Below, in pieces: positions 10,138 to 44,737 of a DNA stretch of 64,000 nt. The number at the start of each line of letters is the position of its first letter. The first letter of the stretch is position 1. Made by a program: the position numbers and the translations under genes. Under the pieces are notes generated by a model. The model worked only from the letters and a program-made list of their open reading frames with translations. It was not told where the DNA came from and searched no databases. The DNA is from a bacterium (lineage in GTDB: Bacteria; Patescibacteriota; Gracilibacteria; JAHISY01): positions 104,724 to 168,723 of the forward strand of contig JAJYAT010000001.1 of NCBI GenBank assembly GCA_021779375.1, given 5' to 3'.

Positions 10138-10714
10138 TTTGGGCTGGGGTTGAAGGTTGAGTTTTTAAACGCGCCTGGCGAATAAGTTCGAATTGGTCGG
10201 AAATTAATTTCTGCATTCCGGCATCAGTGTTAGCGGAATTGTAGCGTGCGAAATTTTCGAGATTGGTCTGCGCATCGTCGAGATGTCCCGCGGCGACTAG
10301 CGCGCGCAGTGCGTCTTCCAGTGCCTCAGCATTGCTCGGATTAGCTTCGAGCAATTTGCCGTAATATTTCGCAGCTTCGAGATAGTCGCCAACCTCTTCG
10401 TAAATCACGCCGAGATTATTGAGTGCCGCAAAATGCTTCGGATCAAGCTCGAGAATTTGTTTGTAAAACGGAATCGCGAGATCAAGTCGTCCAAGCTGAT
10501 CCTGCGCGAAAGCAATCTCAAGCAACGCTCGCGTCTTCGCAGCATCGTCCTGCGCCGCCGCCAAAGCTTGCTCGCCGTTTTTTAATTGTGTCTCAAGCTG
10601 AGTGCGTAGCGCCTCGGGCATGCCCTCTCTTTCAATGCGAAACTTATTGCCACAACCAGCAAGTGAAAACGCGACCATTCCGATAAGCAGAATGCTAAAA
10701 ATTTTGCGAGACAT
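10127..10714 (-). CDS. TPR-repeat lipoprotein
   Basis: A 195-residue lipoprotein with a signal ending in the lipobox FSLAGC (Cys about residue 21). The mature part has at least three tetratricopeptide repeats, for example AIPFYKQILELDPKHFAAL and AAKYYGKLLEANPSNAEAL, the scaffold type used in envelope assembly and protein contacts. Its 3' end overlaps the SLH/Kazal gene start by 11 bp, so the two should be made together and may act on the same surface complex. A TAAAAT box lies about 30 nt upstream of the ATG. Confidence 0.82.
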   Translation of the reverse strand: MSRKIFSILLIGMVAFSLAGCGNKFRIEREGMPEALRTQLETQLKNGEQALAAAQDDAAKTRALLEIAFAQDQLGRLDLAIPFYKQILELDPKHFAALNNLGVIYEEVGDYLEAAKYYGKLLEANPSNAEALEDALRALVAAGHLDDAQTNLENFARYNSANTDAGMQKLISDQFELIRQARLKTQPSTPAQNEN

Positions 10715-10770
10715 TTTGGGAAAGAATTAAAGCGAATCTATTTTAACTTTATGCGCAAGGTCTGTCGACA

Positions 10771-10802
10771 AAAAAAGCCCCACCAAACGGCAGGGCTTTT
10801 TT
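10771..10802. terminator. Rho-independent terminator, bidirectional shape
   Basis: AAAAAAGCCC pairs with GGGCTTTTTT across a 12-nt loop. It ends the SLH gene at 10820-12874 and separates it from the TPR lipoprotein promoter. Confidence 0.85.
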
Positions 10803-10819
10803 AAATTTTCTGAGAGAAA

Positions 10820-12874
10820 TTATTTCGCCAACTTCTTGATGAGCGTGACAATCTTCGCGACCTGACCACGCGTGAGCGTGTCGCCAGGACCGAAGTTACC
10901 ATTGTCATAACCATTGATTGTGCCATTCTTCGCGGCGTAGGTAATCGCTGCAGCGAAGCGGTGTCCTGTGCTCACATCCGGGAAGAGTTTTTCCGAAGTG
11001 ACTTTCGAGAGATCGACACCGGAAGCTTTGAGCAAAACCCAAATCGCTTCACCACGTGTCACATTGACCTCAGGATGGTAAAGCGAGGAAGTCGTCCACG
11101 AAGCACCAGCGACCTCGAGCGCGCCGACGAATGGCGCGTACCAAGCGTCATCAGGCACGTCAGTGTAGGTCTCGGTCGCGTTCGCCAGCCCAAATGCTTT
11201 CGCGGCGATCTTCGCGAGCTCAGCACGATTGATCGTGTTGTCTGGTTTCACTGAGCCATCAGGATAGCCATCGAGAATTCCGAGATTACGCATACGCGCA
11301 ATGAAAGGCGCAGTCCAATTGTCTTTCAATAAATCGGAAAATTTACCAACCGTCGAATCAACTTCTGCCTCTGTGACTCCAGCCTGTTCATAGCGATTTT
11401 CGTTTCTATTTTGGTTTTGCTCTCCATTGGAATTCGTGTCCGTCGAACCAGTCGTCGTATCATCTGATCCTGAGGTCGTGGAAGTGGTGCTCGTCGTGTC
11501 ATCCGATGTAGTCGAACCTGTCGAAGAAGATGACGAGTCATCGCTGTGCTGCGCACCACGGCTAAGCGCGACAGCAGAAGCCGAGGCTGAACCGAGGAAT
11601 GGACCAGCTGTTCCCGAGCAGGCTGCAGTCAGTGCGCCACTTGTGTATTTAAGATAGATTGTTTCGATCGTGTCGTGCTGCAAAGCTGTGAAAGTCGCGA
11701 CGCCGGCTACTGCAGCTTTAGTGGCGCCAGAAAGCGTGCCGCTCCCCGCTGATGAACAATCCGCCAGAAGATAATCTGTCGCTGTAATGGTGTCTGTATC
11801 TGCCGTCGTATTACCATAAGCATCTGTAATATGAACAATCGGTTGAGGGTTGAAGGGATTATTAATCGCTGCGGTCACCGCAGCTTGCTGGGCAATCATC
11901 AGCTTATTTTTCGCGCCGACTGTGACAGTGAGATCGAGATCGTCCGCCGCTGAACCGGTCGACGAAAGCGTGCCATCCGTGACGTCAATCGTAGTCACTT
12001 CAACTTTTTTGGCAGTGAGTGTAAGAATCCCACCACCAGCCGCACCACTCGTGAAAGTAACCGACTGAGCTGTACCGATAGCAATGCCTTCGATATTGCC
12101 AGTCGAACCGTCTGGAGAAAGAGTCGGACCACTGAAGGTCAAACTTTTTGCACCAGCGTAATCAAGGTCAGCATTATTATTGGAATCTCTCGCTGTCACT
12201 GTCAGCTCATTGGTCGCACCCGTGACCTGTGTCGCCGACGCACCTGTCACTTTCAATTTGGTCGCTACGACTGCCACGGTTTTCGCGCTAGTGGCTTGTA
12301 CTGCTGCGGCTGCGAAAGTGTCGCCCGTACCGGCGGTGGCGTTAGTAGTAAATCGAATAGAGTGACCATCAACCACGTTTCCAGAAGTCGAGAAATCGAT
12401 CACGATAAATACCGTAACGCTTTTGCCTGCACCCACTACCATCGCAGAATCCAAACTAGCCGTGAGGGGTCCAGTACCACTGGTAATGCCAACTGGCGAG
12501 GCGTTCGTGTCAATACAAGCATCCGAACCTAAGTCGTAAGTTCCATTCTCACCAGTGTTGTCACCATCATTCGCGCCATCGACACAAATCCGCAGACTCG
12601 CGATTTCCGCATCGACGAGTGATGCACTTGTATTTACGATTGTCATCGTAGTAACTGTCGAGTCCGTCGTCGCGGTGTAGGTTAGTTTTTGTACGACATT
12701 ATTCGCAGGCGAAGTCGCCGGATTGATGCTGCTCGCACCAAGATCGACATCGACTTCTCCTAAATCAGCCGCGAGAACCGAAGGAGAAAGCGCAAGCGCG
12801 AAAGCGAATGCGGCAACCGTACAACCAAAAAACGCCAGTGGGCGCGACCAGATATTTTTAATTTTTCTGGACAT
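10820..12874 (-). CDS. Large secreted SLH protein with Thr/Ser-rich linker
   Basis: A 684-residue surface protein. A signal peptide ends about residue 36 (LSPSVLAADLG). Then come about 430 residues of beta-rich sequence with repeated ATxVTG- and TLTAKK-type strands that look like Ig-like modules, a low-complexity linker of Ser, Thr, Asp and Asn (about 440-490), and three SLH repeats at about 505-684 including GYPDGSVKPDNTINRAELAK. It probably forms part of the outer layer anchored by the SLH region. The upstream region carries TTGACA and a leader containing TTTAACCCC without a Shine-Dalgarno. A terminator follows the gene. Confidence 0.86.
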   Translation of the reverse strand: MSRKIKNIWSRPLAFFGCTVAAFAFALALSPSVLAADLGEVDVDLGASSINPATSPANNVVQKLTYTATTDSTVTTMTIVNTSASLVDAEIASLRICVDGANDGDNTGENGTYDLGSDACIDTNASPVGITSGTGPLTASLDSAMVVGAGKSVTVFIVIDFSTSGNVVDGHSIRFTTNATAGTGDTFAAAAVQATSAKTVAVVATKLKVTGASATQVTGATNELTVTARDSNNNADLDYAGAKSLTFSGPTLSPDGSTGNIEGIAIGTAQSVTFTSGAAGGGILTLTAKKVEVTTIDVTDGTLSSTGSAADDLDLTVTVGAKNKLMIAQQAAVTAAINNPFNPQPIVHITDAYGNTTADTDTITATDYLLADCSSAGSGTLSGATKAAVAGVATFTALQHDTIETIYLKYTSGALTAACSGTAGPFLGSASASAVALSRGAQHSDDSSSSSTGSTTSDDTTSTTSTTSGSDDTTTGSTDTNSNGEQNQNRNENRYEQAGVTEAEVDSTVGKFSDLLKDNWTAPFIARMRNLGILDGYPDGSVKPDNTINRAELAKIAAKAFGLANATETYTDVPDDAWYAPFVGALEVAGASWTTSSLYHPEVNVTRGEAIWVLLKASGVDLSKVTSEKLFPDVSTGHRFAAAITYAAKNGTINGYDNGNFGPGDTLTRGQVAKIVTLIKKLAK

Positions 12875-12976
12875 TAGGGTGGGGTTAAAAAATTTGCTTA
12901 GAGAATTCTACTATTTCTGTCAAAAAACTATATCGAATAGGACATTTTTTTATTTTAGCGGCAAGGGAATTTTATT

Positions 12977-13446
12977 GTCATTGCGAGGAGCGGAGCGACG
13001 AAGCAGCCACTCTGTCATTGCGAGCGAGTGTGGCGAGCGAAGCAATCCCGTCCACCAATCCACGGGTTTGCTTCACCACTTCGTGGTTCGCAAGGACAAT
13101 AGCTTTCTTGTCATTGCGAGCGAATGAGCGAAGCAACCCCACTCTGTCATTGCGAGGAGCGGAGCGACGAAGCAATCTATTCTGTCATTGCGAGGGCGCA
13201 GCCCAAAGCAATCCCGCCGGACAATAATCGAACCGCACGAGACTGCTTCGTCCGCTGAGGCGGGACTCGCAGTGACAGTAGGTTTTGTCATTGCGAGCGC
13301 AGCGAAGCAATCTCTTTCCGTTTTTCACGAGACTGCTTCCCTCCGCTTTCGCGGATGTCGCAGTGACAGTAGGTTTTGTCATTGTGAGGGCGACGAAGCA
13401 ATCCCGAACATTGTCATTGCGAGCGAATGCAGTGAGCGAAGCAAGC
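12977..13446. repeat. Cluster of REP-like palindromic repeats (GTCATTGCGAG family), eight copies
   Basis: Eight copies begin GTCATTGCGAG and end GAAGCAATC or a close variant, near 12977, 13014, 13110, 13147, 13183, 13288, 13378 and 13411. Several are paired with an inverted partner that begins CACGAGACTGCTTC and ends CGCAGTGACAG, so the pairs can fold into long hairpins like bacterial BIMEs. No gene is seen in the cluster. Reading frames inside it are just translations of the repeat. Confidence 0.88.
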
Positions 13447-13460
13447 CCGTGGTAGCAGAA

Positions 13461-13748
13461 TTATTCCCCTAGTAAATCTTTCCAATCAGGATTCATCGCC
13501 TCAATCAGCGCAATTTTCTTTGCGCGCGACCCAGCCTTGATTTGCTTTTCTCGGTCGATCGCCGCACCGATGTCATCCGTCGATTCACACCAAACCAATT
13601 TTTCGATATTGTATCTAGCCGTAAATGATTTGGGATTTCTTTTCTCGCGATGAGTTTGTACACGCGCTTCGATATTGGAAGTAACGCCAGTATAGAGGAC
13701 TGTGTTACGCTGATTCGTCATGATATAAACCCAATATTCGCGTGGCAT
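13461..13748 (-). CDS. GIY-YIG nuclease family protein
   Basis: A 95-residue single-domain protein. The N-terminal WVYIMTNQRNTVLYTGVT carries the paired Tyr motif (as VYI and YTG); a conserved Arg (EARVQTHRE) and a C-terminal Glu region (IDREKQIKAG) complete the nuclease fold. It belongs to the small stand-alone GIY-YIG group (COG2827-like), whose cellular role is poorly known. It lies wholly inside a repeat region, with the nearest REP copy within about 25 bp on each side. This raises the possibility that nuclease and repeats form one mobile unit. Start ATG at 13746-13748. Confidence 0.88.
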   Translation of the reverse strand: MPREYWVYIMTNQRNTVLYTGVTSNIEARVQTHREKRNPKSFTARYNIEKLVWCESTDDIGAAIDREKQIKAGSRAKKIALIEAMNPDWKDLLGE

Positions 13749-13770
13749 GTTTGGATTTTATATTAACTCT

Positions 13771-13889
13771 GTCATTGCGAGGAGCGAAGCGACGAAGCAA
13801 TCCCGAACATTGTCATTGCGAGCGCAGCGAAGCAATCCAGACCTCACGAGACTGCTTCGTCCCGCTAAGCGGGACTCGCAGTGACAGTT
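13771..13889. repeat. REP-like repeats downstream of the GIY-YIG gene
   Basis: Two more GTCATTGCGAG copies (13771 and 13812) and one inverted partner ending CGCAGTGACAG. Together with the larger cluster they bracket the GIY-YIG gene. Confidence 0.85.
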
Positions 13890-13906
13890 GTTTTTCCCCC
13901 AAATAA

Positions 13907-13937
13907 AAAAGCCCCCCGACATTGCCGGAAGGCTTTT
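13907..13937 (-). terminator. Rho-independent terminator after the S-layer gene
   Basis: AAAAGCC and GGCTTTT pair around an inner CCG/CGG hairpin; flanking A and T runs are present on both strands. It lies about 100 bp after the stop of the 1507-residue gene. Between them, at 13980-14025, two smaller inverted repeats (AAACCA/TGGTTT and GGGCG/CGCCC) may stabilise the mRNA end. Confidence 0.7.
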
Positions 13938-14035
13938 CTAATTTTTTAAGCTATTTCCATAGTCTCAAATGATAATTGCTCAAACCAAAAGTGGTTTGGG
14001 CGACCCACAGGGAGCCGCCCTTCCCACCAATTTTA

Positions 14036-17000
14036 TTAGTACTTGAGCGTGTTACCGTTGAGTGTGGAGCTCGCGACCTGACCCAACCATTTGACGGTTG
14101 CGTTGGTCTCGTTCCACCAGAGATCACCAGCCGTGACCGTACCATTTGTCGAGCTACCGAGAGCGATGCTCGGAGTGAGCAAATCGTCTGTACCAGCCTG
14201 ATCAGTGATCAAAGTGGTCGTAGCTGTTTCGACAGTGAAGGTCTTGCTTGTGCCTTTGGAAACTTCGATTGCAGTGGTCGGGACGAAAGTCGCCGTAGCT
14301 GCGCTCGTGGAAGTCTCGCTGATGTAGCCAGTCGCTACAGTGGAGCCACCCTCTTTGAGGTAGACCGCTTGAGCGTTGCCACCAGCAGCCAAGGAAGCAT
14401 CCGAAGCGAGATTGACCTTGAGTTTCTCCGTGTAGAGAGTGACTTGGTCGAGATCGATTGTGTCGAGGTTGGCAGAGCCAGCCGCAGACCAGGCGAGAGT
14501 CGTAGTCGCAGCCAAGTTGACACCAGCCGCACCTTTCACCGCAGTAGTGAATGGGAAGTCAACGAATGTCCAAGTAGCAGCCGACGGAGTTGTCGCTTTA
14601 GTTTGATCCGCTCCACCAGCGTCGATGGTCAAAATAACTTCTTCAGCTACACTGTTGCGAATCCAGTAAGAGATGCCTTCGTAACCAGAGAGATTGGCAG
14701 CTGCAGCAAATGTATCAGTGATAGCAGAACCTGCTCCTGAAGCTGTGTCTCTGAGGTAAGCCGAGTCACCGACACCACCAGAAGTCGGAGCAGTGAGAGC
14801 ACCAGTACCAGCCGTGAATGTGCCGTCGAGGGCAGCATCCTGGAAGTCGGTTGTGGCAGCAGTACAATCATTAATTTGACCTGCGCGGAGTTGAACTTTT
14901 TCAGCCGCGTCAGCCGAGATCGTGAAGATGAAGATACCGTCCGCAGCAGCGACCGTGCGGCTTCCGCTTGGTGAGCTGCTCGCGAGAGCGATAGTCGGTT
15001 TGCTTTCGTAAACCACCATTTGATTGGTAGCTGTGAGGTAACCAGTACCTGGGAGAGCGTACCAAACATCTGCTGAAGCAGCAGCCGTGTCGCCGTCATC
15101 AGCTATCACACCGATGAGCGAAGTGTCGCCATCTGTGTATTTAGTCGTGAGAACGAGAAGGATGTCAGTCGCCGCTTTGGTAGCTGTGTCGCCACCAAGT
15201 TTGACGATTGTACCGACCGGTAAAGAAATATTAAGATCCGGAGTTGTGATGGTCGTAGAGCTTCCCAAAACCACAGTCTGAGCACCAGCCGCGAGAGCAA
15301 GTGTTGTGTCGGTGTAGGAAATCGTACCGAAGTCCAAGTCGGAAGATGCCGAGACACCTTCGTCGAGCTTGCTGACTTTGTAAGTTTCGCCTGAACCTTG
15401 TGCGACAGCTTCGAAGTCATTGAACGCGAGGTCCAAGTCAACGAATCCACCAGCGGTTGCACCAGCTGCGATTGTGTTCAGCGTAGCAGTGACCGTGAGC
15501 ACGGCATCATTGTCCGCAGGGACAGCGATATCGAGACCCGAGAAGTCGGCAGTACCATTCGTGAGGTAGCCAGTCTTCGTCTCAGTCGCACCGGAAGAAT
15601 TGGTGTAGCTGAGCTTGATCGAGACGACATTGTTGTCGTAGTCGCCGAGATTAGCAGCGAGAACACCGCTTTGGCGGTTGTTGATGCTGAGTTTCTGGAC
15701 TTTGAAAGCTTCGTCAGTCGAAGTGAATTTGAACTTGCTGATTGAGACATCAGACGTGCCAGCGACGACGATATTTTCTTTCGCCGTGTCAGCATCGACA
15801 GCGATCGTGAGCGATCCGCCAGTCGAGACAGTGAGCAAAGGATTCTGAGTAGCTGCACCATTGAGCGCAGTCGAACCAGTCGCTGCGACGGTGTTGCCAT
15901 CTTTGTCCTCAGCCGTGATATCCGTGCTTGGGACGATATCCGCTCCGATGTAAGTCGTTGCCGAAACATTGGTCGAGAGGTCACCCTTCACGACGACTTG
16001 GACAGTCGAGCCAGCCGGGATGGTGTAGCTCATGTTGTCGAAGGTCGCTTTGTAGTAACCAGTCGCCTGGGCGCCAACCAAAGTCAGACCTTTCGGTCCG
16101 GCGACTTTAGTACCACCAATCCAGAGTTCGAGATTGTTGACATAGTCACTCGCTGCGAGTTGACCAGCCAAGAAAGTTGTATTGTCATCCGCACGAACGC
16201 GAATCACCATTTCAGTGATCTTCGCTTCGGAAGCCGCACCAGCAGCCATCGTGAGTCCGATGAGCGGAACATCCTGAGTTCCTTTCACAGCTGTGTCAGA
16301 GACCGGAGTCGAAGACTTAGTGACTGTGAGAGAAGCTGATTTGACCGACATTGTTTTGCCGTCGATATTACCAGTCGGGACGACAGAGACACTATTGGTG
16401 ATTGTCTTGTTGTTCACGTCTTTGATTTCGAGTGTGGCATCAGAAATGACGATAGTTGCATTGACCGTGTCGTTGATGAAAGCCGCCGCTGTGTTGTTCG
16501 CGAGATCAGTCGTGATTGCGAGATTGAGACTCTCACCCGCTGTCATCGTGAATTCATCTTGGAATGTGTAAGCACCAGCATCGTCTTTCCCAACAGCTTC
16601 TGTAACTGTATCAGTACTAATAGTAGGAGCATCGTACTGCTTCATCACATTGGCATCAATCGGTCCGAGGACGACTGCGCCCGTATCGCGATTGATAATC
16701 TTGATGTCAGTGTAGTTGGAGGTCGTACCATTGAGGAGACCACCAGCCGTATTGCCAGCATCATTCGTCGTCAAAGCGATACCAAGTTTCTTGACAGTGA
16801 TATCCGAGACGGAAGTGATATTGAAGTCGAGGAGGTGGACATCTTTCGCGTTGACCGCGATATCAGCTGCCGTCGGGCCACTGGAAGAGAGAGTGACATC
16901 ACCACCTTGGAGTGTGGATTCTGAGTCATCAGTTCCCGGAGTTGCTCCATCGTAGTCGCCGGAAGTGACACTCATGCCGAAACCGTAAGTGCCGCCAGTG

Positions 17001-18677: not shown

Positions 18678-18856
18678 TTCCGACTCCCAGTAGCGAGAGT
18701 GAATCCCGAAATGATGATCGAGAAGCGAGGGTTGAGCCTCCAGAATCTAAATTTAATTGAAAGTTTAGAAATATCTTTAATTTTGTTCGAGTTGTTCGAA
18801 ATGTTCTAAATGTTGGATGAACAGTTAGAACGAGTTCCGCGCAAACGGGAACTACT

Positions 18857-18990
18857 GTCATTCCCGTGAAAACGGGAATCCAGAATTACTATTTTCCCAC
18901 CGAATTTCTCTCTTTGAGAATCAGTTTCGTGGGGCGAGATTTCAAGGAGCGAAGCGTCTCTGTCATTCCCGCGGAAGCGGGAATCCAGAA
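18857..18990. repeat. Two dRS3-like inverted repeats (ATTCCC-N8-GGGAAT)
   Basis: CTGTCATTCCCGTGAAAACG followed by GGAATCCAG at about 18857, and a second copy with CCGCGGAAGCGG at about 18961. The core has the form ATTCCC-N8-GGGAAT, the same shape as the Neisseria dRS3 repeat, though no relationship is implied. Confidence 0.8.
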
Positions 18991-19440
18991 TTATTTAATC
19001 TTTCGTTATTGTTTCAAAGCGTCATGAGACGCAAGTTTAGCTCCGCCATTTACCATTTTTTTGGAGGAGCCTCAGGACTTTTTTCACTGAAATTTAAGGA
19101 TTTTCAGGGAGTTTATTGGTGTGCGCAAACCGTGTCAAATCTTTGGTTTCAGGATTGCCCACGCACGCGACCAGTTTTAACCAAATTTTTCACCATTTTC
19201 CCAACATGGATGTAGTCGCTTTTACCACTTTGGGGCTTATTAAAGCGATTTTTTGTCTGGTCTGAGCTTTTCTCAGTTCGCTTATTAGAACTCTTTTCCC
19301 AGTTTTTCGTTTCAAATTTTGGCTTGCGAGAATTTGGCTTTTATTTCCTGGCTTCAGCCAAATTTTGTTGCGGCGAAAATTTTAGTTCAGAAAAACCAAA
19401 AGTGAAATCTTCCGCCTCAGCCAATCTCGCTTGAATTACG
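18991..19440. other. Gene-free AT-rich spacer
   Basis: I see no convincing gene, RNA or terminator here. Short frames have no start context and no family resemblance. Confidence 0.5.
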
Positions 19441-19489
19441 CGAATTCTCTTGCACCTGTACAAATTCTTTTTTCACGACTTTTTCTTTG

Positions 19490-19735
19490 TCTTTCCCGCG
19501 AAAGCGGGAATCCAAAACAAACCCCTTGTAATTCCCGTCCTCACTGTCATTGCGAACGCAGTGAAGCCCCGAAGGGACCACTTCGTGGCAATCCCGATTG
19601 TCCATCACGAAACTGCTTCTGGGCACAGGCGGGAATCGGGAAAAACCCCTTATCATTCCCGCTCCCCTTTTTTGTCATTCCCGCGCAGGCGGGAACCCAA
19701 AAAAACACTAACTGCGGGAATCCAGAAAAAAACTA
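19490..19735. repeat. Mixed repeat patch: dRS3-like, REP-like and CCACTTCGTGG hairpin units
   Basis: TTTCCCGCGAAAGCGGGAA at about 19493, a hybrid at about 19550-19640 that starts GTCATTGCGAA, runs through GGGACCACTTCGTGGC and ends in a GGGAATCGGG unit, and further dRS3-like copies at about 19675 and 19710. The families are nested or fused, which suggests repeated insertion at the same place. Confidence 0.75.
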
Positions 19736-19863
19736 AAAACTAATTTTGCAGCTTGAGCGACAGTGTCGAGCGCAAAAACAAAAACCCGTCATACGCAAAA
19801 ATTGGGGCGGCGACTCGGGAGCGCGCGGCAAAAAATCCTCACCTGTTCAAATTCGAGCCGTAG

Positions 19864-19883
19864 GGAACGGACATGTCCGTTCC
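19864..19883. repeat. Perfect 20-bp palindrome followed by T run
   Basis: GGAACGGACATGTCCGTTCC is perfectly self-complementary and is followed by TTTTT, so it could also act as a terminator on the plus strand. No gene precedes it. Confidence 0.7.
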
Positions 19884-19947
19884 TTTTTCTCCAAAAACAG
19901 CTTAAAACAAGGCAAAATTAACCAATGTCTTTTTTTCCTTCTTTTAA

Positions 19948-19989
19948 TCGGGGCATTCATGCCCCGATCCACGGCATAAATGCCGTGGA
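19948..19989. repeat. Two adjacent palindromes
   Basis: TCGGGGCAT/ATGCCCCGA (19948-19967) and TCCACGGCAT/ATGCCGTGGA (19968-19989) abut with no gap, each with a 2-nt centre. Confidence 0.75.
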
Positions 19990-20050
19990 TAAAAAATTCT
20001 GGTTTTATTCTAATTCTCGAATTCGGAAACAAAGTTGGACATCCCACCTG

Positions 20051-20092
20051 CTCCGTGTTCCATGCTCCATGTTTTATGTTCCATGCTTCATG
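20051..20092. repeat. CATG-type short-word repeat (TGTTCCATG family)
   Basis: The words GTTCCATG, CTCCATG, TTTTATG and CTTCATG follow one another. Part of this lies inside tgt and supplies its final codons and stop. Related copies are at 29618 and 45021. Confidence 0.65.
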
Positions 20093-21222
20093 AAATCGCG
20101 CTTAAATTCCGCAAATTCGTTCTTCCGAATCGCCGCGCGAATCGCACTCATGAAGTCGTGAATCCAGGTCAAATTGTGCAGCGTGAAAAGTCGCATCCCG
20201 AGAATTTCATTGGAAAGGAAAAGGTGGCGCAAATATCCGCGACTGAAATTTTGGCAGGCCTCGCAACGACAACCTTGAATTAAAGGCTTTTTATCTGTTT
20301 TGAATTTGGCGTTGCGAATGCTCACCCGCCTGCCGAAGCGATCGAAAAATGCACCGTGTCGCGCGAGCCGCGTCGGAATCACACAGTCGAACATGTCGAT
20401 TCCCCGCCCGACCGCCTCGAGAATATCACGCGGATCGCCGACGCCCATCAAGTAGCGCGGCTTATTTTCAGGCAAAAGCGGACAAACCAAGTCAATTGTT
20501 TTGAGAAAATCCGCCTTCGACTCCCCGACCGCCAGTCCGCCAATCGCGATTCCCGGCACTGGCAAATCAGCGCAAAACTCGGCTGATTGCTTGCGCAAAT
20601 CCGGAAAATTGACTCCTTGGACAATTGGAAAAAGTGCTTGTTTAGAAGTGTTTTCTTGCCCTACGGAGTTCGCGTTAGCGAACGAAGGACGGGTGTGAGA
20701 CTTCAAAGTTTCCTCCGCCCACTTCATCGTGCGCAGCAGCGCGACCTCGGCGACCTGGCGCGAAGCATCACCGGGTGCACATTCATCGAGCTGCATCGCG
20801 ATGTCAGAACCCAGTTTTTGCTGAATTTGTAGGGCTTTTTTCGGAGTGAGGTAAATTTTGGAACCATCGAGCGGCGAGCGAAATTCGACTCCCCGATCGG
20901 AAATCTGACGCATTTTCGCCAAAGAAAAAACTTGAAATCCGCCCGAGTCGGTCAGGATCGGACCGTCCCAATGCATAAATTTATGCAGTCCGCCGAATTT
21001 TTTGATTAAATCCTCTCCTGGTCGTAAGTGCAAATGAAAAGTATTCGCGAGAATTATTTCGCTTCCACAAGCCCGCACCTCCTCAGGAGTCAGGGTTTTG
21101 ACTGCACCGTAAGTCCCGACCGGCATGAAAACTGGCGTGCGAATCGCACCATGCGGCGTGTAAAATGTCGCTGTTCGCGCTGCCGTTTTGCGATCTTTCC
21201 GCGAAATTTTAAACTCAAACAC
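20074..21222 (-). CDS. tgt: tRNA-guanine transglycosylase
   Basis: A 382-residue enzyme that swaps guanine for preQ1 (or queuine) at position 34 of tRNAs with GUN anticodons. It has the catalytic Asp92 in TDSGGFQVFSL, the second Asp in GIDMFDCVIPTR, the zinc ligands CRCEAC plus a downstream His, and the substrate loop IGGLAVGES. The start is GTG at 21220-21222: TAAAAT ends six bases before it, giving a leaderless GTG. The last residues (FMKHGT) are encoded by a dispersed CATG-type repeat, so the C-terminus seems to have been extended by repeat DNA. Together with queH it points to queuosine in tRNA. Confidence 0.95.
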   Translation of the reverse strand: MFEFKISRKDRKTAARTATFYTPHGAIRTPVFMPVGTYGAVKTLTPEEVRACGSEIILANTFHLHLRPGEDLIKKFGGLHKFMHWDGPILTDSGGFQVFSLAKMRQISDRGVEFRSPLDGSKIYLTPKKALQIQQKLGSDIAMQLDECAPGDASRQVAEVALLRTMKWAEETLKSHTRPSFANANSVGQENTSKQALFPIVQGVNFPDLRKQSAEFCADLPVPGIAIGGLAVGESKADFLKTIDLVCPLLPENKPRYLMGVGDPRDILEAVGRGIDMFDCVIPTRLARHGAFFDRFGRRVSIRNAKFKTDKKPLIQGCRCEACQNFSRGYLRHLFLSNEILGMRLFTLHNLTWIHDFMSAIRAAIRKNEFAEFKRDFMKHGT

Positions 21223-21228
21223 CGCTGG

Positions 21229-21234
21229 ATTTTA
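21229..21234 (-). promoter_or_regulatory. -10 box TAAAAT of tgt, leaderless GTG
   Basis: TAAAAT ends 6 nt before the GTG start of tgt. It is one of the clearest cases in the window in which a non-ATG codon would be at the mRNA 5' end. Confidence 0.5.
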
Positions 21235-21362
21235 TCTTGAAAATTGAATATTTAAAAATTTTCTTCTTAAGGCTCGGTCCGGCACAAATCATAAAACCAC
21301 TATTTTTAGCAGCCCAGTGACTTAATGACTCAGTGACTCAAAGACTTAATAACTCTCCCGTC

Positions 21363-21472
21363 TTGTCATTCCCGCGCCCCTTCTGTCATTCCCGCGAAGG
21401 CGGGAACCCAAAAACAAACAACTTTGTCATTCCCGCCCTCTCTTGTCATTCCCGGCTTGACCGGGAATCCAG
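21363..21472. repeat. dRS3-like repeat cluster
   Basis: Several TGTCATTCCCG units, two of them complete with a GGGAA right arm (about 21381-21410 and 21440-21471). There is no gene between tgt and queH other than this repeat DNA. Confidence 0.8.
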
Positions 21473-21504
21473 TAAAAAACAAAACGGCTTAAAACAATGC
21501 AAAT

Positions 21505-21574
21505 TTAGCCAATGACCCAGTGACCAACGACCCCCTGAACCCATTAGCCAATGACCTCCGAACCCATGACCAAA
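21505..21574. repeat. Short-word repeat (CCAATGACC/GAACCCAT family) before queH
   Basis: A string of near-repeats such as CCAATGACC, CAGTGACC, GAACCCATTAGCC and CGAACCCATGACC. It runs up to the queH start and is related to the inverted repeats around the gene at 49906-50292. Confidence 0.7.
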
Positions 21575-22126
21575 ATGACTAAACTCCTCCTCCACTCCTG
21601 CTGCGCACCCTGCCTCACTCACCCACTCACGGAATTACAGAAAGATTTTGAGGTCGTTTTGTTTTTTTACAATCCGAATATTCAACCCCGTGCAGAATAC
21701 GATATACGGCTCACTGAAGCCAAAAAATACTGCCATGGTAAGTGCGAAATTTTGGAAGGAAATTACGATCCCGAAGTTTGGTTTGAGAAAATTAAAGGAT
21801 TCGAAAACGAGCCCGAGCGCGGCGCACGCTGTCGGATTTGCTACGAAATGCGACTTGCCAAAACAGCCGAGCTTGCGGCAAAATCGAGTTTCCAGTTTTT
21901 CGCGACAACACTCTCAATCTCCCCACACAAAAATTCAGACTGGTTAAATGAGATTGGTCGAGAATTGTCAAGTAAATACGGCGTCAAATTCCTCGAGTCC
22001 AACTGGAAAAAATGTGACGGCTTCAAAAAATCACTCGAACTTTCAGCCGCCGCCAATCTGAAACGACAAAATTATTGCGGCTGCGTCTTCAGCCGAAAGA
22101 CAGCTGGCGAAAAATCTGTCGAGTAG
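21575..22126 (+). CDS. queH: Epoxyqueuosine reductase QueH
   Basis: A protein of about 183 residues, the non-cobalamin enzyme for the last step of queuosine synthesis. The motifs HSCCAPC near the N-terminus, GARCRICYEMRL in the middle and YCGCVFS near the C-terminus bind the iron-sulfur and metal centres. Three ATGs are possible (21551, 21566, 21575); 21575 gives the usual family start (MTKLLLHSCCAPC) and the earlier ones lie in repeat DNA. The stop codon TAG at 22124-22126 lies inside the first AGTAGACAA repeat, so the repeat defines the C-terminal end. Confidence 0.93.
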   Translation: MTKLLLHSCCAPCLTHPLTELQKDFEVVLFFYNPNIQPRAEYDIRLTEAKKYCHGKCEILEGNYDPEVWFEKIKGFENEPERGARCRICYEMRLAKTAELAAKSSFQFFATTLSISPHKNSDWLNEIGRELSSKYGVKFLESNWKKCDGFKKSLELSAAANLKRQNYCGCVFSRKTAGEKSVE

Positions 22127-22290
22127 ACAAAAAAATTGTCCAGTGGACAACATGTAGACAACCAGTAGACAAATGAGTAGACAAAATCACTCCCCTATCC
22201 CGTCGAAAATGTCGAGTAGACAACCAGTTTTGTCGACTCAACAAAAGTTCTTTTGGGCCCGACCGAGTCGACAAGTGGTCGACATTTTTC
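22120..22290. repeat. AGTNGACAA repeat swarm, first block
   Basis: Eight or nine copies of AGTAGACAA, AGTGGACAA or AGTCGACAA in both orientations within 170 bp, including the palindromic arrangement TTGTCCAGTGGACAA. It covers the queH stop and the first codons of the NlpC/P60 gene. Confidence 0.9.
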
Positions 22291-22919
22291 GTAAGCCTGT
22301 GAGTAACTTCGAGCGACTTTCTGAGGCCGCGAAAACCCGTAATCGCCAAACCCAAACCACTCTCACTGATCCGGCTTTCCGAGTCCTACGACAAGAGAAC
22401 GACTGGAGTCTGGTTGAGCTCGCCGACGGCACATTTGGTTGGCTGCCAAATTCAAGCCTCAAACGCGTAAGAAACTTGGATTATTGGGTAAAAATAAAAC
22501 CAGCGCCACGCGAAAAGCTGATCGAAATCAAAGCTCCCGGCAAAGCAAAAGTTCGCAAAATTTTGGCTGAATTCGCAGGCATCCCCTACCTCTGGGGCGG
22601 CACGACACAGCGCGGCATGGATTGCTCGGCTTTTAGCCAAAAATTATTCTGGCAACTTGGCAAAATTCTGCTCCCACGTAACTCCCGCGAACAAAAAAAG
22701 TGCGGCCGACCTGTCCGGTCGACAAAAATCAAAGATCTTGACTTGCTCTTTTTTGTCCACTCGACGACTGGTCGTCATCACGTCGCTGTCTACTGGGATG
22801 ATGAAGTTTGGCACTTGTGTCTAGACAGCCAAGGGCTGACTGCTGAATCACTGGAATCAATCAAAAAAAGATATAATCACCTCGCTACGCGAAGAATTTT
22901 TAAACTCCAAAATGCTTGA
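22173..22919 (+). CDS. NlpC/P60 family peptidoglycan hydrolase with SH3-like domain
   Basis: About 248 residues. An SH3-like segment (WSLVELADGTFGWLPNSSL) at about 72-95 precedes an NlpC/P60 domain with catalytic Cys in GMDCSAF and His in RHHVAVYWDDE. These cysteine peptidases cut peptide stems in peptidoglycan. No clear signal peptide is seen, partly because the N-terminal 40 residues are encoded by AGTNGACAA repeats, so the true start is uncertain (ATG at 22173 or 22209). Its 3' end overlaps the murD start by 8 bp, linking it to wall synthesis. Confidence 0.85.
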   Translation: MSRQNHSPIPSKMSSRQPVLSTQQKFFWARPSRQVVDIFRKPVSNFERLSEAAKTRNRQTQTTLTDPAFRVLRQENDWSLVELADGTFGWLPNSSLKRVRNLDYWVKIKPAPREKLIEIKAPGKAKVRKILAEFAGIPYLWGGTTQRGMDCSAFSQKLFWQLGKILLPRNSREQKKCGRPVRSTKIKDLDLLFFVHSTTGRHHVAVYWDDEVWHLCLDSQGLTAESLESIKKRYNHLATRRIFKLQNA

Positions 22920-24438
22920 TCGAATCAAGGCTGCGAAGAACATTCACGTCGTCGGCGTGAGCGGCACCGAGGGCGCCGCAATCGCCGCCTTTTTGCAAAA
23001 TCTCGGCGTCAGTTTTGTCGCGCACGACTTCAGCGAGGAAAAAGTTTTCTCGCGTAATTTCAATGCCAATCATTTTGGCTATTTGGCTTCTAGAAGAACC
23101 AAATTACTTAAAAAAGTCTTTGCAAACCCGCAAATCTGTTTCCAAAAAAACTACCTCGACGGTATCGAAAAGGCCGATTTGATCTTCGTCTCTCAGAACT
23201 GGGAGGCTTACTCCCCGAACCAAAAGCTAAAAGCTGTTTTTGAAAAAAATCCGAGTATTTTTTCGACCATCACCCAGCTTTATTTCCAGCTTTTCCCAGG
23301 CAAAATTCTTGCCGTGACCGGCACGAATGGCAAGTCGACAACCACCAAACTGATTGCCGAAATCATGTTGTCGAGCCTGCCTGCCGGTAGGCAGGTAGAC
23401 AAAGTAGTAGACACCAGTAGACAAGGAGTAGACAAGTCGTCTGGAAAAATTTATTTCACGGGAAACGACCGGCGAAATATCCAAATTCTTGATCAGTTAA
23501 AAAATTGGCGTAAAACCGACTGGCTCGTAGTCGAAGTTTCGAATCGCCAACTTAAATTCCCACTTGGCCGCGCACCGAAAGTTGGCGTAATTACGAATGT
23601 CAGCCCAAACCATTTGAATGAATATATAAGAGGATTTTCAGCTTACAAAAGCGGTAAGTTCCGACTAATCGCTGAGCAGAAAAAAGGGGATATTGCTGTC
23701 TTGAATTATGACAATATAGTCACGAAAAACTTTATTAAAAAAGCCCGCGCATCGTCAAAACCTTTCTCAACAAAAAACCATTTGTCTACTGGTGTCTACA
23801 TCGATAATGGTTGGATTGTCGAAAAACGCCAGGCTGTCGACCTGCCCCGCAGAGGCGGGGCTCGACAAACTCGTATTTGTCCACTCGACAAGATCAAAGT
23901 TCTGGGCGAGCACAATCTAGCGAATATCTTGGCGGCTGTCGCTGCGACTCGTTCCGCCGGGGTTAGCGCGAAAGTAATTTGTGCGGCGATTGCGAAATTT
24001 CGCGGAATTCCTCAGCGACTTGAAGTCGTGCTTGAGCGAAATGGTGTGAAGTTCATCAATGATTCCGCCTCGACGACGCCCGAATCGACCATTGCTGCGT
24101 TGAAAAGTTTTCCGAAAGGTAGTGTCCAGTTGATCGCAGGCGGGGAGTCAAAAGGTATGGATTACACGATGCTAACGCGCGAAATCAGACGCCAAAAAAC
24201 GCACCTCGTTTTACTCGAAAGTCCGCTCGCCGAAATTTTGGGACCGAAGCTGCGCAAGGAAAAAATTTCTTTCACGCTGGTCAAAACCTTGCAGGAAGCC
24301 GTCAAGATTTCAGCTCAAAATGCGGTAAAGAGCGACGCTGTGCTGCTTTCTCCCGCCGCAGCTTGGTTTTGCTATTTCGCTGGCAAAATCCCACTCGGCG
24401 GACGCGGATTCGAGCAATTCGTGAAAACCCTCACGTAA
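22912..24438 (+). CDS. murD: UDP-N-acetylmuramoylalanine-D-glutamate ligase
   Basis: A 508-residue Mur ligase. The N-terminal Rossmann domain has VVGVSGTEG; the central ATPase has the P-loop GTNGKSTT at about 137-144; the C-terminal domain has NDSASTTPESTIAAL and LLSPAAAWFCYF, then a RGFEQFV end as in MurD. It adds D-Glu to UDP-MurNAc-Ala. It is longer than E. coli MurD (438) partly through repeat insertions: LPAGRQV plus VDK/VDT repeats at about 155-178, and a hairpin-encoded DLPRRGGARQTR near 310. All remain in frame and sit in loops. Its stop abuts the stop of the LysW-like gene. Confidence 0.9.
   Translation: MLDRIKAAKNIHVVGVSGTEGAAIAAFLQNLGVSFVAHDFSEEKVFSRNFNANHFGYLASRRTKLLKKVFANPQICFQKNYLDGIEKADLIFVSQNWEAYSPNQKLKAVFEKNPSIFSTITQLYFQLFPGKILAVTGTNGKSTTTKLIAEIMLSSLPAGRQVDKVVDTSRQGVDKSSGKIYFTGNDRRNIQILDQLKNWRKTDWLVVEVSNRQLKFPLGRAPKVGVITNVSPNHLNEYIRGFSAYKSGKFRLIAEQKKGDIAVLNYDNIVTKNFIKKARASSKPFSTKNHLSTGVYIDNGWIVEKRQAVDLPRRGGARQTRICPLDKIKVLGEHNLANILAAVAATRSAGVSAKVICAAIAKFRGIPQRLEVVLERNGVKFINDSASTTPESTIAALKSFPKGSVQLIAGGESKGMDYTMLTREIRRQKTHLVLLESPLAEILGPKLRKEKISFTLVKTLQEAVKISAQNAVKSDAVLLSPAAAWFCYFAGKIPLGGRGFEQFVKTLT
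23376..23395. repeat. Palindromic insert (CCTGCC...GGCAGG) inside murD
   Basis: CCTGCCTGCCGGTAGGCAGG, read in frame as LPAGRQ. The reverse complement of the same 20-mer occurs between genes at about 43993. Confidence 0.85.
23391..23440. repeat. AGTNGACAA repeats inside murD
   Basis: Four copies (GGTAGACAA, AGTAGACAC, AGTAGACAA, AGTAGACAA) directly after the LPAGRQ palindrome, read in frame as VDK/VDT/VDK. Confidence 0.88.
23780..23890. repeat. AGTNGACAA copies and a GTCGA-flanked hairpin inside murD
   Basis: TTGTCTACTGGTGTCTAC at about 23783, then TGTCGA-CCT-GCCCCGC-AGAG-GCGGGGC-TCGACA at 23835-23867, then TTGTCCACT. The hairpin arms are fused to the repeat core, and the whole stretch stays in frame. 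Confidence 0.8.
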
Positions 24439-24591
24439 CTATTTTTCTTCATCGACCGGCTCGTACTTGAGCGGGTCGAGCGATGTAATCAGTATTTCGC
24501 AGCCACAATTTTCGCACTCGACAACCTCGCCAGCCTCGAGGGGCTCGTGCTCAATTTCGGACTCGCAATCGGGGCAAATAATCGTTATCAT
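24439..24591 (-). CDS. LysW-like amino-group carrier / zinc-ribbon protein
   Basis: A 50-residue protein, CPDC then 21 residues later CENC, with the surrounding pattern EAGEVVECENCGCEI and LDPLKYEPVDEEK that follows LysW, the carrier protein which holds alpha-aminoadipate or glutamate on its C-terminal Glu during lysine or arginine synthesis. The canonical EDWGE tail is absent; the protein ends DEEK. So it may be a carrier with an altered tail, or only a zinc ribbon. It has the best promoter in the window (TTGACA, 16 bp, TAAAAT, 8 nt to ATG) and starts 13 bp from the divergent threonine-synthase-like gene. Confidence 0.72.
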   Translation of the reverse strand: MITIICPDCESEIEHEPLEAGEVVECENCGCEILITSLDPLKYEPVDEEK

Positions 24592-24593
24592 TT

Positions 24594-24600
24594 GGGAGGA
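24594..24600 (+). promoter_or_regulatory. Strong Shine-Dalgarno (GGGAGGA) fixing the start at 24605
   Basis: GGGAGGA lies 4 nt before the ATG at 24605. It is one of very few clear Shine-Dalgarno sequences in the window, so the ribosome can use them although most genes here do not. Confidence 0.7.
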
Positions 24601-24627
24601 TTTTATGAATTTAATTTTGAATGTCAA
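24600..24627 (-). promoter_or_regulatory. Near-consensus promoter of the LysW-like gene, inside the start of the divergent gene
   Basis: TTGACA (24627-24622), 16 bp, TAAAAT (24605-24600), then 8 nt to the ATG at 24591. The -10 overlaps the start codon of the gene at 24605 and the -35 lies in its eighth codon. This supports a leaderless mRNA. Confidence 0.75.
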
Positions 24628-25633
24628 CAAAAATTTTGACGATTTTTGCGACCGCGAGCGACGTGATCTTTGGCGCTACGCAAAACTGCTCGGCAAACTG
24701 AAAAATACGAGCCAAGTTAACTCGGGACAAACCGAATTCACACCGCTTGAAAAAGTGGGGAAATGGCTTGTTAAACGCGAAGATTGCAGCATAACGGGCT
24801 CGCATAAGTTTCGCGCGCTCGCTTTTCAATTGAGCTGCCTGCTCGCTGAAAAAATCGACCGCGCCGTTCTCTCAAGCTCGGGAAATGCGGCGATTGCGGC
24901 AGCCAAAATCTTGCCGCACAGTGCTAATTTAAAACTTTTTACGTTTCTGTCGAGACGAACGCCACCGGAAAAATTAGCTGCGCTCGAATTTTCAAAAAAT
25001 TTCGTGCCAATTCTCTCCGACCGCCCCCTGCGCATGGCCAAATATGCCACAAAACACTTTAAATTAAGAGATTTACGTCCATCGCAAGATCGGAATGCCG
25101 TCGTCGGCTTTCGCTCGCTTGGCTTCGAAATTTTTGAGCAAAACCCCAAAATCGAGAATATTTTTAGCTTCGCGACCAGCTGCGCGAGTGTTCGGGGCAT
25201 GGCCGAAGCGTTTGAAATTTTGGTAAAGCTTGGTGCACTGAAAAAGGCACCACGAGTGTTCGCGGTAGTCTCAAATGGAAAGCTCGCTGGCGAATTGAGC
25301 GGACGCATAGTCGACAAAAATCTTTGTCGAGTGGACAAAAAAATTGTCGAGTGGACACAAGTAGACACGAGTAGACAACCAGTAGACAACAAGATTTGTC
25401 GGGTCGACATCTCCGACGAAGAAATCTTAGCTGCTCACCAAAAGTTTAACTCGCTGGAAACCTCAAACGAAGGCTTCGCCAGCCTAGCTGCAGCTGAAAA
25501 AGTCCGACCGTCAGGGGAGTCGCTCGTAATTTTGACCGGAAGAAATTGGAAAAGCGGGAAGATTGATTTGGCGCGTTTTGAAAAAGCTGACAATTTTGCG
25601 GAAGTTGATAGAATACTTACTCCAAATGGATAA
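24605..25633 (+). CDS. PLP-dependent enzyme, threonine-synthase-like (fold type II)
   Basis: A 342-residue protein. SITGSHKFRA carries the PLP lysine, SSSGNAAIAAA the substrate/phosphate loop, and VILTGRNWKSGK resembles the C-terminal TG-G-KD motif of threonine synthases. The glycine loop is ATSCASVRG rather than GGGG. It differs strongly from the window's true threonine synthase (47616-49475), so another beta-replacement or elimination reaction is possible, for example making a non-standard amino acid. About 35 residues (234-268) come from in-frame AGTNGACAA repeats. It overlaps the ATP-grasp gene by 8 bp. Confidence 0.78.
   Translation: MNLILNVNKNFDDFCDRERRDLWRYAKLLGKLKNTSQVNSGQTEFTPLEKVGKWLVKREDCSITGSHKFRALAFQLSCLLAEKIDRAVLSSSGNAAIAAAKILPHSANLKLFTFLSRRTPPEKLAALEFSKNFVPILSDRPLRMAKYATKHFKLRDLRPSQDRNAVVGFRSLGFEIFEQNPKIENIFSFATSCASVRGMAEAFEILVKLGALKKAPRVFAVVSNGKLAGELSGRIVDKNLCRVDKKIVEWTQVDTSRQPVDNKICRVDISDEEILAAHQKFNSLETSNEGFASLAAAEKVRPSGESLVILTGRNWKSGKIDLARFEKADNFAEVDRILTPNG
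25305..25415. repeat. AGTNGACAA repeats inside the threonine-synthase-like gene
   Basis: Seven copies in about 110 bp (AGTCGACAA, AGTGGACAA, AGTGGACAC, AGTAGACAC, AGTAGACAA twice, GGTCGACAT), encoding repeated VDK, VDT, VDN and RVD without a frameshift. Confidence 0.9.
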
Positions 25634-26657
25634 CTTCCCCCGCAAAACGATTCTCTTGGTCTCGCCCGATCCTCGCAAAATCGAGGGGCTCGAGCTCGCG
25701 TGGCCGCACTTCAAAATTTTCGTTTCGAAGATGAGTCCCGCCCTGCGCAAAGCCGAAAGGCGAGGAGCCGAAATCATAAATTTGAAGCTACCAAAAATTA
25801 AAAAAACGAGTGATTTGCTGGCAGAAATGGTCGGACGAAACTTGGTCAAAAGGGGGAGTCGCGTTTTGGTTTTCAAAAATTTGGCGAAAATCGAGAAGCT
25901 CGCCGCCAAACGCAAATTCGAAATTTTGATGCCAGAGTCAAAATTTCTAATCTTGCTCGAAGATAAAATTAACTTCGTCCAGTTCTGCCACGAATTTGCG
26001 CTGCCGATTTTGCCAACCAAGGTTCGCGAATTAAATCTCGTACGCTTCACCGAACCAATTGTCGTGCAAACGCGGCGCGGTCACGCTGGTGAATCGACTT
26101 ATTTCATCCGGTCACCACGCGAGCTAGAAAATCTGAAACACAAAATGGGGGACTTCACGGTCAAAGTGACACCGCTCAAAAAACTGCCGACTTTCTCGCT
26201 GGATTTCTGCGTGACACGCAACGGGATTTATTCGACTCAACCCTTTTTCCAAATCACGGGCGACCCGAGACTAAATCCGCTGCCAGGCGGCACAGGCGGA
26301 ATCGACTTCGATATCGCCGCTCAGCTGTCAGTCGAGACGAAGGAAAGAATCGGCGCGCTGGTCGAGATGGTCGGAGCAGCTTTGAAAAAAATTGGCTACC
26401 GCGGCATCGCGGGAATTGATTTCCTCGTTGATGATGCGAACTCGCGGATTTATTTGCTCGAGCTGAATCCCCGACTGCTCTCGAATCTCGGTTTCGTCAC
26501 GCGCAAACAAGTCGAGGCAGGGGAGCTGCCGCTCGCGACGATTCATTTGCTTGAATTCCTAGGGGAAGATTTCACTAAATTTAAAGCCGAAAGATTGAGC
26601 CGAGTAAATTCTGGACGCTTCGAAAATCCGCATCCGGACGCGCAGTTAGCTTTTTGA
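25626..26657 (+). CDS. ATP-grasp ligase of unknown substrate
   Basis: A 343-residue enzyme. VVQTRRGHAGESTYFI looks like the ATP-grasp glycine loop, and GYRGIAGIDFLVDDANSRIY followed by LLELNPRL is the Mg/ATP-binding end (Asp, Glu, Asn). These enzymes join a carboxylate to an amine via an acyl phosphate. Family members include LysX (which loads LysW), D-Ala-D-Ala and D-Asp ligases, and PurK/carboxylases. The nearby LysW-like gene favours the first, and murD the second. The start at 25626 follows TAGAAT by 11 nt and overlaps the preceding stop by 8 bp. Confidence 0.75.
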   Translation: MDNFPRKTILLVSPDPRKIEGLELAWPHFKIFVSKMSPALRKAERRGAEIINLKLPKIKKTSDLLAEMVGRNLVKRGSRVLVFKNLAKIEKLAAKRKFEILMPESKFLILLEDKINFVQFCHEFALPILPTKVRELNLVRFTEPIVVQTRRGHAGESTYFIRSPRELENLKHKMGDFTVKVTPLKKLPTFSLDFCVTRNGIYSTQPFFQITGDPRLNPLPGGTGGIDFDIAAQLSVETKERIGALVEMVGAALKKIGYRGIAGIDFLVDDANSRIYLLELNPRLLSNLGFVTRKQVEAGELPLATIHLLEFLGEDFTKFKAERLSRVNSGRFENPHPDAQLAF

Positions 26658-26658
26658 G

Positions 26659-26664
26659 TAGAAT
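26659..26664 (+). promoter_or_regulatory. -10 box TAGAAT of the DUF2127 gene, leaderless arrangement
   Basis: TAGAAT ends 7 nt before the ATG at 26672. It overlaps the end of the ATP-grasp gene (stop ending at 26657) by only a few bases. Confidence 0.5.
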
Positions 26665-26671
26665 CTCTACG

Positions 26672-27169
26672 ATGAATAAAACAAGTCTCAAGCTTAAATT
26701 GCTGCATCAGGCTTTCGAGCTGAGTGTTTTGTTAAAAGGTCTCGATGGAATCTTGGAAGCTGTCGGCGGGATACTTTTATTTTTTATTAAACCGTACCAA
26801 ATCAACGCTGTCATCGTCTGGCTAACGCAGCACGAATTGATTGAAGACTCGCATGATTTAATTGCAAACTACCTAGTGAAATTGGGCGCAGGTCTTTCGT
26901 TAGACGCCCAAATCTTCGGCGCGATTTACTTACTCATTCATGGGATTATCAAATTCGGACTGATTGTCGGCTTATGGAAAAAGAAGCTTATGGCTTATCC
27001 AATTGCGATAGTTTTTCTCGCACTTTTCATCGTTTACCAAATTTACCGCTACGTTTACCATCCTGCGCTTTGGCTAATCGTCTTGAGCGTATTCGATGCT
27101 TTAATGATTCTCCTAACCTGGATTGAATATCAAAGACTCAAGAAAAACTTTGGTGTCAGCGCTCGTTAA
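26672..27169 (+). CDS. DUF2127 membrane protein
   Basis: A 165-residue protein with four membrane segments. The N-terminus KLLHQAFELSVLLKGLDGIL and the following GG is the DUF2127 signature. Function is unknown for the family. It appears to have its own leaderless promoter rather than belonging to the ATP-grasp transcript. The last 14 bp overlap the 3' end of the convergent DHQ synthase gene. Confidence 0.82.
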   Translation: MNKTSLKLKLLHQAFELSVLLKGLDGILEAVGGILLFFIKPYQINAVIVWLTQHELIEDSHDLIANYLVKLGAGLSLDAQIFGAIYLLIHGIIKFGLIVGLWKKKLMAYPIAIVFLALFIVYQIYRYVYHPALWLIVLSVFDALMILLTWIEYQRLKKNFGVSAR

Positions 27170-34572: not shown

Positions 34573-34618
34573 CTTAATCCTTAATCCTTAATCCTTAATC
34601 CTTTTTTCTTAATCCTTA
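34573..34618. repeat. Seven-base tandem repeat (CTTAATC)n
   Basis: Four perfect CTTAATC units, a T-rich interruption, then one more unit. Lies between tRNA-Ser and rpmB. A similar single word is at about 36053. Confidence 0.8.
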
Positions 34619-35879: not shown

Positions 35880-36081
35880 TCTAATAAGGATTAAGGACTA
35901 AGTAAAAAGAACTAAGCTAGGTTGATTTTGATGGTGAAGGTGAAGTTTGTGGACGAAAAAGACGCTTCACGGAATTTTTTGTAGTGGTGAATGAGCCATA
36001 AAAAGACAAAACACCAGGTTGAATGACCCATGCGAGACATTTCTGTATACTTCTTAATCCTGTTTTCTTGCTTCTTATTTC

Positions 36082-44179: not shown

Positions 44180-44737
44180 ATGTCCGCCCAAAAAGATTTT
44201 TATTCCGTCACGCGCGAAGAAGCTGCTGAAGAATTGGGCGTCTCGACTCGCACGCTCGACCGCTATTTGAAGCGCGGGAAATTGCGCATGAAGCTTTCGC
44301 CGAGCCGTCAGGTTTTGATTCACGAGAAAGATTTGGAGAAATTCGGCGCGCATTTACAGCCGATCAAGAAAGCCAATCCGACACATTCTGGAAAAAATAA
44401 AATGCGCGAAGACCTGCCGCCTGAGGCGATTGAAATTTCGAGCGAAGCCATCGAGGAAAAAATTTTCCGCGAGCTCTATGACGAAGCCGCCAAGGATTTG
44501 CGGGCGAAGCAGGAAAAATTGGAAGCGGCGAGCTTCCGGGTCGGACAGCTCGAAGCCCAGCTCAAGAGCTCCGTCCCGCTGCTCGAATTCAAACAAAAAG
44601 AGCAGACGATGCTCGGCGAGCAGTCGCGACTGAAAGAAAAACTCGTCGCCGCGATTTTGAAAAGTTGGGTCTTCCTCGGACTCGCCGTCACCGCGACAAT
44701 CATCGCGGTCATTCTCGCGCTGGTGAATTATCTTTGA
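44180..44737 (+). CDS. MerR/excisionase-like HTH protein with coiled coil and C-terminal membrane anchor
   Basis: A 185-residue protein. Residues 8-55 form a winged-helix or excisionase-type DNA-binding unit (VTREEAAEELGVSTRTLDRY, then RQVLIHEKDLEKF). A coiled coil of Glu, Lys and Leu residues spans about 95-155, and one hydrophobic helix (VFLGLAVTATIIAVILALV) sits at the C-terminus, so it may tether DNA to the membrane. The gene is flanked by repeat elements: the MITE-like element and the CCCCAACCCTG repeats at 43979 and 44742. Confidence 0.75.
   Translation: MSAQKDFYSVTREEAAEELGVSTRTLDRYLKRGKLRMKLSPSRQVLIHEKDLEKFGAHLQPIKKANPTHSGKNKMREDLPPEAIEISSEAIEEKIFRELYDEAAKDLRAKQEKLEAASFRVGQLEAQLKSSVPLLEFKQKEQTMLGEQSRLKEKLVAAILKSWVFLGLAVTATIIAVILALVNYL

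Follow-up and report, generated by a model that had tools for sequence, protein, structure and literature searches.

A dense swarm of short DNA words, found in a 64,000-nucleotide stretch of a Gracilibacteria genome (the window), is a real and conserved array that functions at the DNA level. Our analysis suggests that it is probably the binding-site array of a class-specific, membrane-anchored protein encoded in the same window, for which it would act as a centromere-like anchoring or partition site. It also illustrates with rare clarity how selection can maintain a DNA-binding array within coding sequence, with enzyme loops possibly serving as DNA address labels while the enzyme cores are kept. 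The array segments, their host genes and the candidate protein, hereafter the anchor protein, are listed in Table 1.

Table 1. Array segments, host genes and the candidate array-binding protein (positions in the window).
Feature	Position	Strand	Description
Array segment 1	22117..22285		nine GTVGACA words; queH/NlpC-P60 intergenic region and 5' coding part of NlpC/P60
Array segment 2	22719..22827		scattered words in the NlpC/P60 gene (22719, 22754, 22787)
Array segment 3	23369..23435		variable loop of the MurD-like ligase (VDK-VDTSRQ-VDK)
Array segment 4	23782..23891		MurD-like ligase, another variable loop; words in opposite orientation
Array segment 5	25309..25410		seven words; PALP variable loop between conserved GKLAGEL and DISDEEIL
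queH	21551..22126	+	host gene; stop codon in the first word
NlpC/P60	22173..22919	+	host gene
MurD-like ligase	22912..24438	+	host gene
PALP (threonine-synthase-like)	24605..25633	+	host gene
Anchor protein (candidate array binder)	44180..44737	+	185 aa; MerR-type winged HTH, linker, coiled coil, C-terminal TM helix
Winged-HTH domain	44201..44374	+	residues 8-65; invariant R12, A15, S22, R24, D27, R28
Long coiled coil	44441..44668	+	residues 88-163
C-terminal transmembrane helix	44669..44725	+	residues 164-182

The word AGTVGACAA occurs 30 times in the genome (1,073,675 bases in 14 contigs). Seventeen copies lie inside 3.27 kb and the other 13 are isolated singletons, a clustering with a binomial p of ~2e-35, and the genome holds this single array. 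Within the 64-kb window AGTNGACAA has 18 exact matches, 17 of them at 22122-25389, where shuffles expect 1.4; the looser word GTNGACA has 29 matches at 21501-26700. The first-pass annotation had described about two dozen copies in 3.3 kb, which is a fair count, and almost none in the rest of the window, and the even spread over the genome that would have spoken against its reading is not found. The 10-11 bp tandems and the head-to-head pairs TTGTC-NAGTN-GACAA that it described are both present, and the 15-mer TTGTCNANTNGACAA, the paired form, has three sites in the genome, all in the swarm. In the first segment the tandem spacing is 10-12 bp and the palindrome TTGTCCAGTGGACAA occupies 22136-22150.

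The words also sit inside genes much as had been noticed. The queH stop codon (TAG at 22124-22126) falls inside the first copy, and the PALP loop is filled by seven words. Two murD loops are likewise filled (~23396-23435 and 23782-23890), but a copy at 23333 consists of the conserved P-loop codons (GTNGKST) and does not belong with them. It had further been noted that the copies always keep frame. The genes are indeed intact, but this is merely what intact genes require, because GTAGACA is unreadable in the frame of its TAG.

Several other features of the window were observed. Another swarm of REP-like units, CATTGCGAG / GACGAAGCAATC, is dense over ~4 kb at 10400-14300, and a cluster of the unit GTCATTCCCGCG / CGGGAATGAC, a repeat known from many bacterial genomes, lies at 18850-21460. 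AGGATTAAG has five copies in 44 bp (34573-34616, mostly in 7-bp steps) and two more at 35887 and 36053, with 0.2 expected. The CPR-type palindrome CCTGCCTGCCGGTAGGCAGG at 23377-23399 stands in frame in the murD loop beside the words (LPAGRQ), and is also found in the relative G003. A small LysW-like carrier protein (TIGR01206, below cutoff) at 24445-24594 on the minus strand adjoins the PALP enzyme and an ATP-grasp protein (24605-26657); the three possibly form an amino acid pathway that relies on a carrier protein and lies within the array locus.

The array is conserved in the family. Using MurD, we located the same locus in four relatives of the window genome (G000), namely G001, G002, G003 and G005. 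MurD identity to the window is 66% for G003 and 61% for G005, which belongs to another genus. The queH-nlpC-murD-PALP locus carries 21-32 words on the stretches retrieved from these four genomes, and the outgroup loci checked have 0-2. All tandem-pattern matches in the family (f1) lie at this locus or at the G005 gene for the anchor protein. The pooled family site is CNAGTRGACA(A/C), and many copies form the palindrome TTGTCNAGTRGACAA. In protein alignments with the word-coded residues marked, the words occupy three loops, two in the MurD-like ligase and one in PALP, the insertion borders being drawn from comparison within the family. These loops vary in length between ~10 and 55 residues and their words are re-shuffled, while the flanking residues and the enzyme cores are conserved. 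Homologues sharing the same residues by ordinary descent would have spoken against the first-pass reading; within the family the loop residues differ and the DNA word is retained. What is kept is the DNA word, not the peptide.

The spacing of the words points in the same direction. Distances between same-strand words in the family swarms peak at 11, 21, 32, 42, 52, 62 and 73 bp, with a best period of 10.3 bp overall and 10.2-10.45 bp in each of the five main sequences (a further short piece carries no information on the period). At 10.3 bp R/sqrt(n) reaches 10.3, versus at most 3.85 in 500 jitter runs in which each word was shifted by up to 5 bp. A 3-bp period sought in the family swarms gave an R/sqrt(n) of only 1.7. 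Helical phasing without a 3-bp period indicates selection on DNA, and it places the sites on one face of the DNA, as for cooperative protein binding. Tandem duplication of 10-11 bp units could be a part source of the phasing, but word pairs on opposite strands are likewise phased, which duplication does not explain.

Scanning 84,980 genomes for the tandem pattern gave the lead to a candidate binder. Among the matches listed were mostly chance singletons, the family itself and one Peregrinibacteria contig, which has 10 words within and immediately upstream of a single gene for a protein with a winged HTH (wHTH), a coiled coil and a transmembrane (TM) helix. The orthologue of its product is the anchor protein of the window, encoded ~19 kb from the swarm; the spacing is alike in G000 and G005. 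The anchor protein is present in 131 of 192 genomes of the class, nearly always in single copy, and in all six family genomes. In full length it is found in this class only; relatives were not found in 72,556 plasmids, nor was the protein found in phages.

We predicted the structure of the anchor protein with AlphaFold2 from 40 sequences (mean pLDDT 88.7). The model has a wHTH at residues 8-65, a flexible linker and helices at 88-130 and 134-184, and all 40 homologues have a C-terminal hydrophobic or TM helix. The top Foldseek match in the PDB is the RacA-DNA complex 5i44 (E 2.3e-3, probability 1.00, TMt 0.63-0.65), followed by NmlR, Xis and BldC. A PDB profile search gives weak sequence similarity to RacA (E 0.08), and a Pfam scan returns only HTH families and weak unrelated matches. 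The recognition helix VSxRTxDRY is nearly invariant among homologues, which fits the use of one word across the class. In several homologues the coding sequence of the linker itself contains words, as the enzyme loops do.

The word marks the gene of this protein across the class. In 60 neighbourhoods GTRGACA has a density of 2.34/kb beside the anchor gene versus 0.24/kb farther out (~10x), while a reversed-word control gives 0.11/kb and 0.15/kb, respectively. De novo, over ~60 loci, TGTCTAC ranks first of 8026 7-mers near the anchor gene, and the leading ranks are nearly all its variants. Tandem words occur in 63 of 131 genomes with the anchor protein versus 6 of 61 without it (p 1e-7), and a control pattern is not enriched (29/131 and 23/61). 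The association has exceptions. No GTRGACA was found beside the anchor gene in families f21, f22 and f15, and genus g1 has no array there. In the GC-poor families f10 and f14 the anchor gene shows no enrichment of the word, but in G134 and G070, whose families read through TGA, the words concentrate in dispersed domains of ~55 and ~100 kb. The G070 domain holds ordinary chromosomal genes, and we also observed that the TGTCYAC-rich stretch G070:C1:400001-500000 has a markedly weaker strand skew and more mixed gene orientation than its surroundings. Overall, the sequence comparisons strongly support a pairing of the anchor protein with the word GTRGACA/TGTCYAC. The first-pass suggestion of a protein-binding-site array is therefore strongly supported by the conservation at the same locus, the helical phasing and the class-wide marking of one candidate's gene.

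The anchor protein might be a membrane-bound transcription regulator with the arrays as its operators, regulating itself at its own gene and controlling queH-murD-PALP in the window family. We consider this unlikely, though a serious rival. In many families the array does extend over the anchor gene's own promoter and 5' part, with words within -600 to +300 of the gene start in ~20 genomes; MerR-type wHTH proteins are mostly regulators, and the fold neighbour BldC regulates from direct repeats (PMC5859096). However, the array of the window family runs for 3.3 kb through the coding regions of several genes, well away from promoters, and an operator role accords poorly both with genus g1, which lacks an array at the anchor gene, and with words spread over ~55-100 kb in G134 and G070. 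If autoregulation is nevertheless true, a binding word will still have been gained for an unnamed protein of about two thirds of the sampled class genomes.

The first-pass annotation had also proposed a locally expanding word behaving as a mobile or replicating unit. A mobile or self-replicating word, or a neutral local expansion by slippage, seems to us quite improbable. Short tandem copies with fast turnover would suit it, as would the many short repeats of CPR genomes, this window included; but the word fills one genomic locus only, the same one in five species, with both orientations helix-phased, and in other families it appears again at a single protein's gene. Of "locally expanding" one part holds, as copy number turns over in place, but there is no spread beyond the locus. 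A mobile unit finds no support: there is no genome dispersal, no border or longer unit is seen, and the location is conserved between genera. Nor does the array behave like mobile palindromic elements (RPE- or REP-like), whose copies are dispersed over the genome: it occupies one locus only.

We also considered whether the swarm could be a cluster of DnaA-box-like 9-mers, that is, an unconventional oriC or a DnaA-titrating site. Seven of nine letters of TTGTCYACT match TTATCCACA, no canonical DnaA-box cluster exists genome-wide, and the HTH turn of the family's DnaA has lost one residue (F-QRDHST for FGGRDHTT). Nevertheless we judge the reading very improbable. The variable base of the word corresponds to box position 6, a base conserved in DnaA boxes. 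Across families the word goes with the anchor gene, and it is unclustered at dnaA in the window genome. A strand classifier based on codons, 87-95% accurate on held-out contigs, finds no switch of strand bias at the swarm (C12:127-130 kb). As the main reading an oriC was rejected: dnaA is on a different contig (C4) and has no boxes there, no canonical cluster is found and the strand bias crosses the swarm unswitched. The classifier places a weak origin-type switch ~45-60 kb rightward of the swarm and one of terminus type on a different contig, which only suggests that the array is near the origin; the G070 skew is rearranged. As a separate observation, the single 998-kb contig of G102 has a GC skew of one sign (-0.15 to -0.39) in 20 of 20 sampled stretches with genes on both strands, which suggests mainly one-directional replication. 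One-signed GC skew has been reported for some Microgenomates (PMC7143001).

That the repeats act as RNA or as a peptide feature (the VDK/VDT tandems) is extremely unlikely, for although the words often read VD(K/T/N), they occur on either strand, in more than one frame and also in intergenic DNA, with no 3-bp periodicity and in loops whose lengths vary over ~10-55 aa.

Returning to the membrane-anchored array binder, we propose the following mechanism. The wHTH would read the half-site GTRGACA(A), often paired as TTGTCNAGTRGACAA, and neighbouring protomers would occupy one helix face in ~10.5-bp steps and coat the array cooperatively. The coiled coil and the C-terminal TM helix would then tie the nucleoprotein complex to the cell membrane, and the array would serve as an anchor or centromere-like site, much as in RacA-ram, RocS or pSK1 Par. 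Comparative genomics shows that the sites are conserved, turn over, are phased and accompany the anchor gene; that the protein binds them directly, tethers the chromosome to the membrane and takes part in segregation is what we infer. Taken further, the Gracilibacteria/Peregrinibacteria class of CPR may anchor and segregate its chromosomes independently of ParB, by a class-specific system of one transmembrane wHTH-coiled-coil protein and a single helically phased centromere, which can lie at the protein's own gene, over 50-100 kb, or, in the window family, in the loops of housekeeping enzymes; on this wider proposal we find the case evenly balanced. No ParB_N domain was found in G000-G004, i.e. 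five of six family genomes lack ParB, and 28 of 192 class genomes have ParB_N. ParB is somewhat rarer with the anchor protein (13/131 versus 15/61 without it, p 0.014), and co-occurrence exists. The literature searched gives no good account of chromosome holding and segregation in CPR/Patescibacteria, and most genomes of this class have no ParB. The present analysis offers a concrete candidate protein and its site, both accessible to tests with purified components.

Several known systems resemble this pair. ParB-parS also uses clustered palindromic sites as a centromere, but its protein and site are unrelated, and it was rejected for the window genome, which has no ParB_N domain. The pSK1 Par centromere adjoins its own gene, and in this it is like the arrays of families f18 and f26. 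As in the anchor protein, a single gene combining a wHTH and a coiled coil makes up the pSK1 Par partition system (PMC11500499), but Par is plasmid-borne and has a DUF536, whereas the anchor protein is absent from the plasmids searched. RocS of Streptococcus pneumoniae shares the MerR-type wHTH, the coiled coil and a C-terminal membrane anchor, and is reported to serve segregation where ParABS is dispensable (PMC11500499). Its anchor is an amphipathic helix and it has a DUF536, while the anchor protein has a TM helix, according to model and hydropathy, and no DUF536 match. The wHTH of the Streptomyces protein BldC, the fold neighbour mentioned above, forms cooperative multimers head-to-tail on 9-bp direct repeats (PMC5859096), which the 9-12 bp tandem spacing of the array would fit, but BldC is a soluble 68-aa regulator with no coiled coil or membrane anchor. 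RacA/ram of Bacillus subtilis, whose DNA complex is the top fold match, likewise combines a protein with a MerR-type wHTH and a coiled coil with numerous short repeats crowded into one region of the chromosome (PMC6593407). It differs in that RacA reaches the membrane via DivIVA and not by a TM helix, and the ram site is GC-rich, unlike the array word. The NCBIfam equivalog of RacA, NF009647, does not match the window protein, and the Bin_256 homologue scores 14.0 bits against a cutoff of 165. In RacA, RocS and pSK1 Par the wHTH-coiled-coil design segregates DNA (PMC6593407, PMC11500499), and the system described here would be a variant of that anchoring and partition design which stands outside the RacA, RocS, Par and ParB families.
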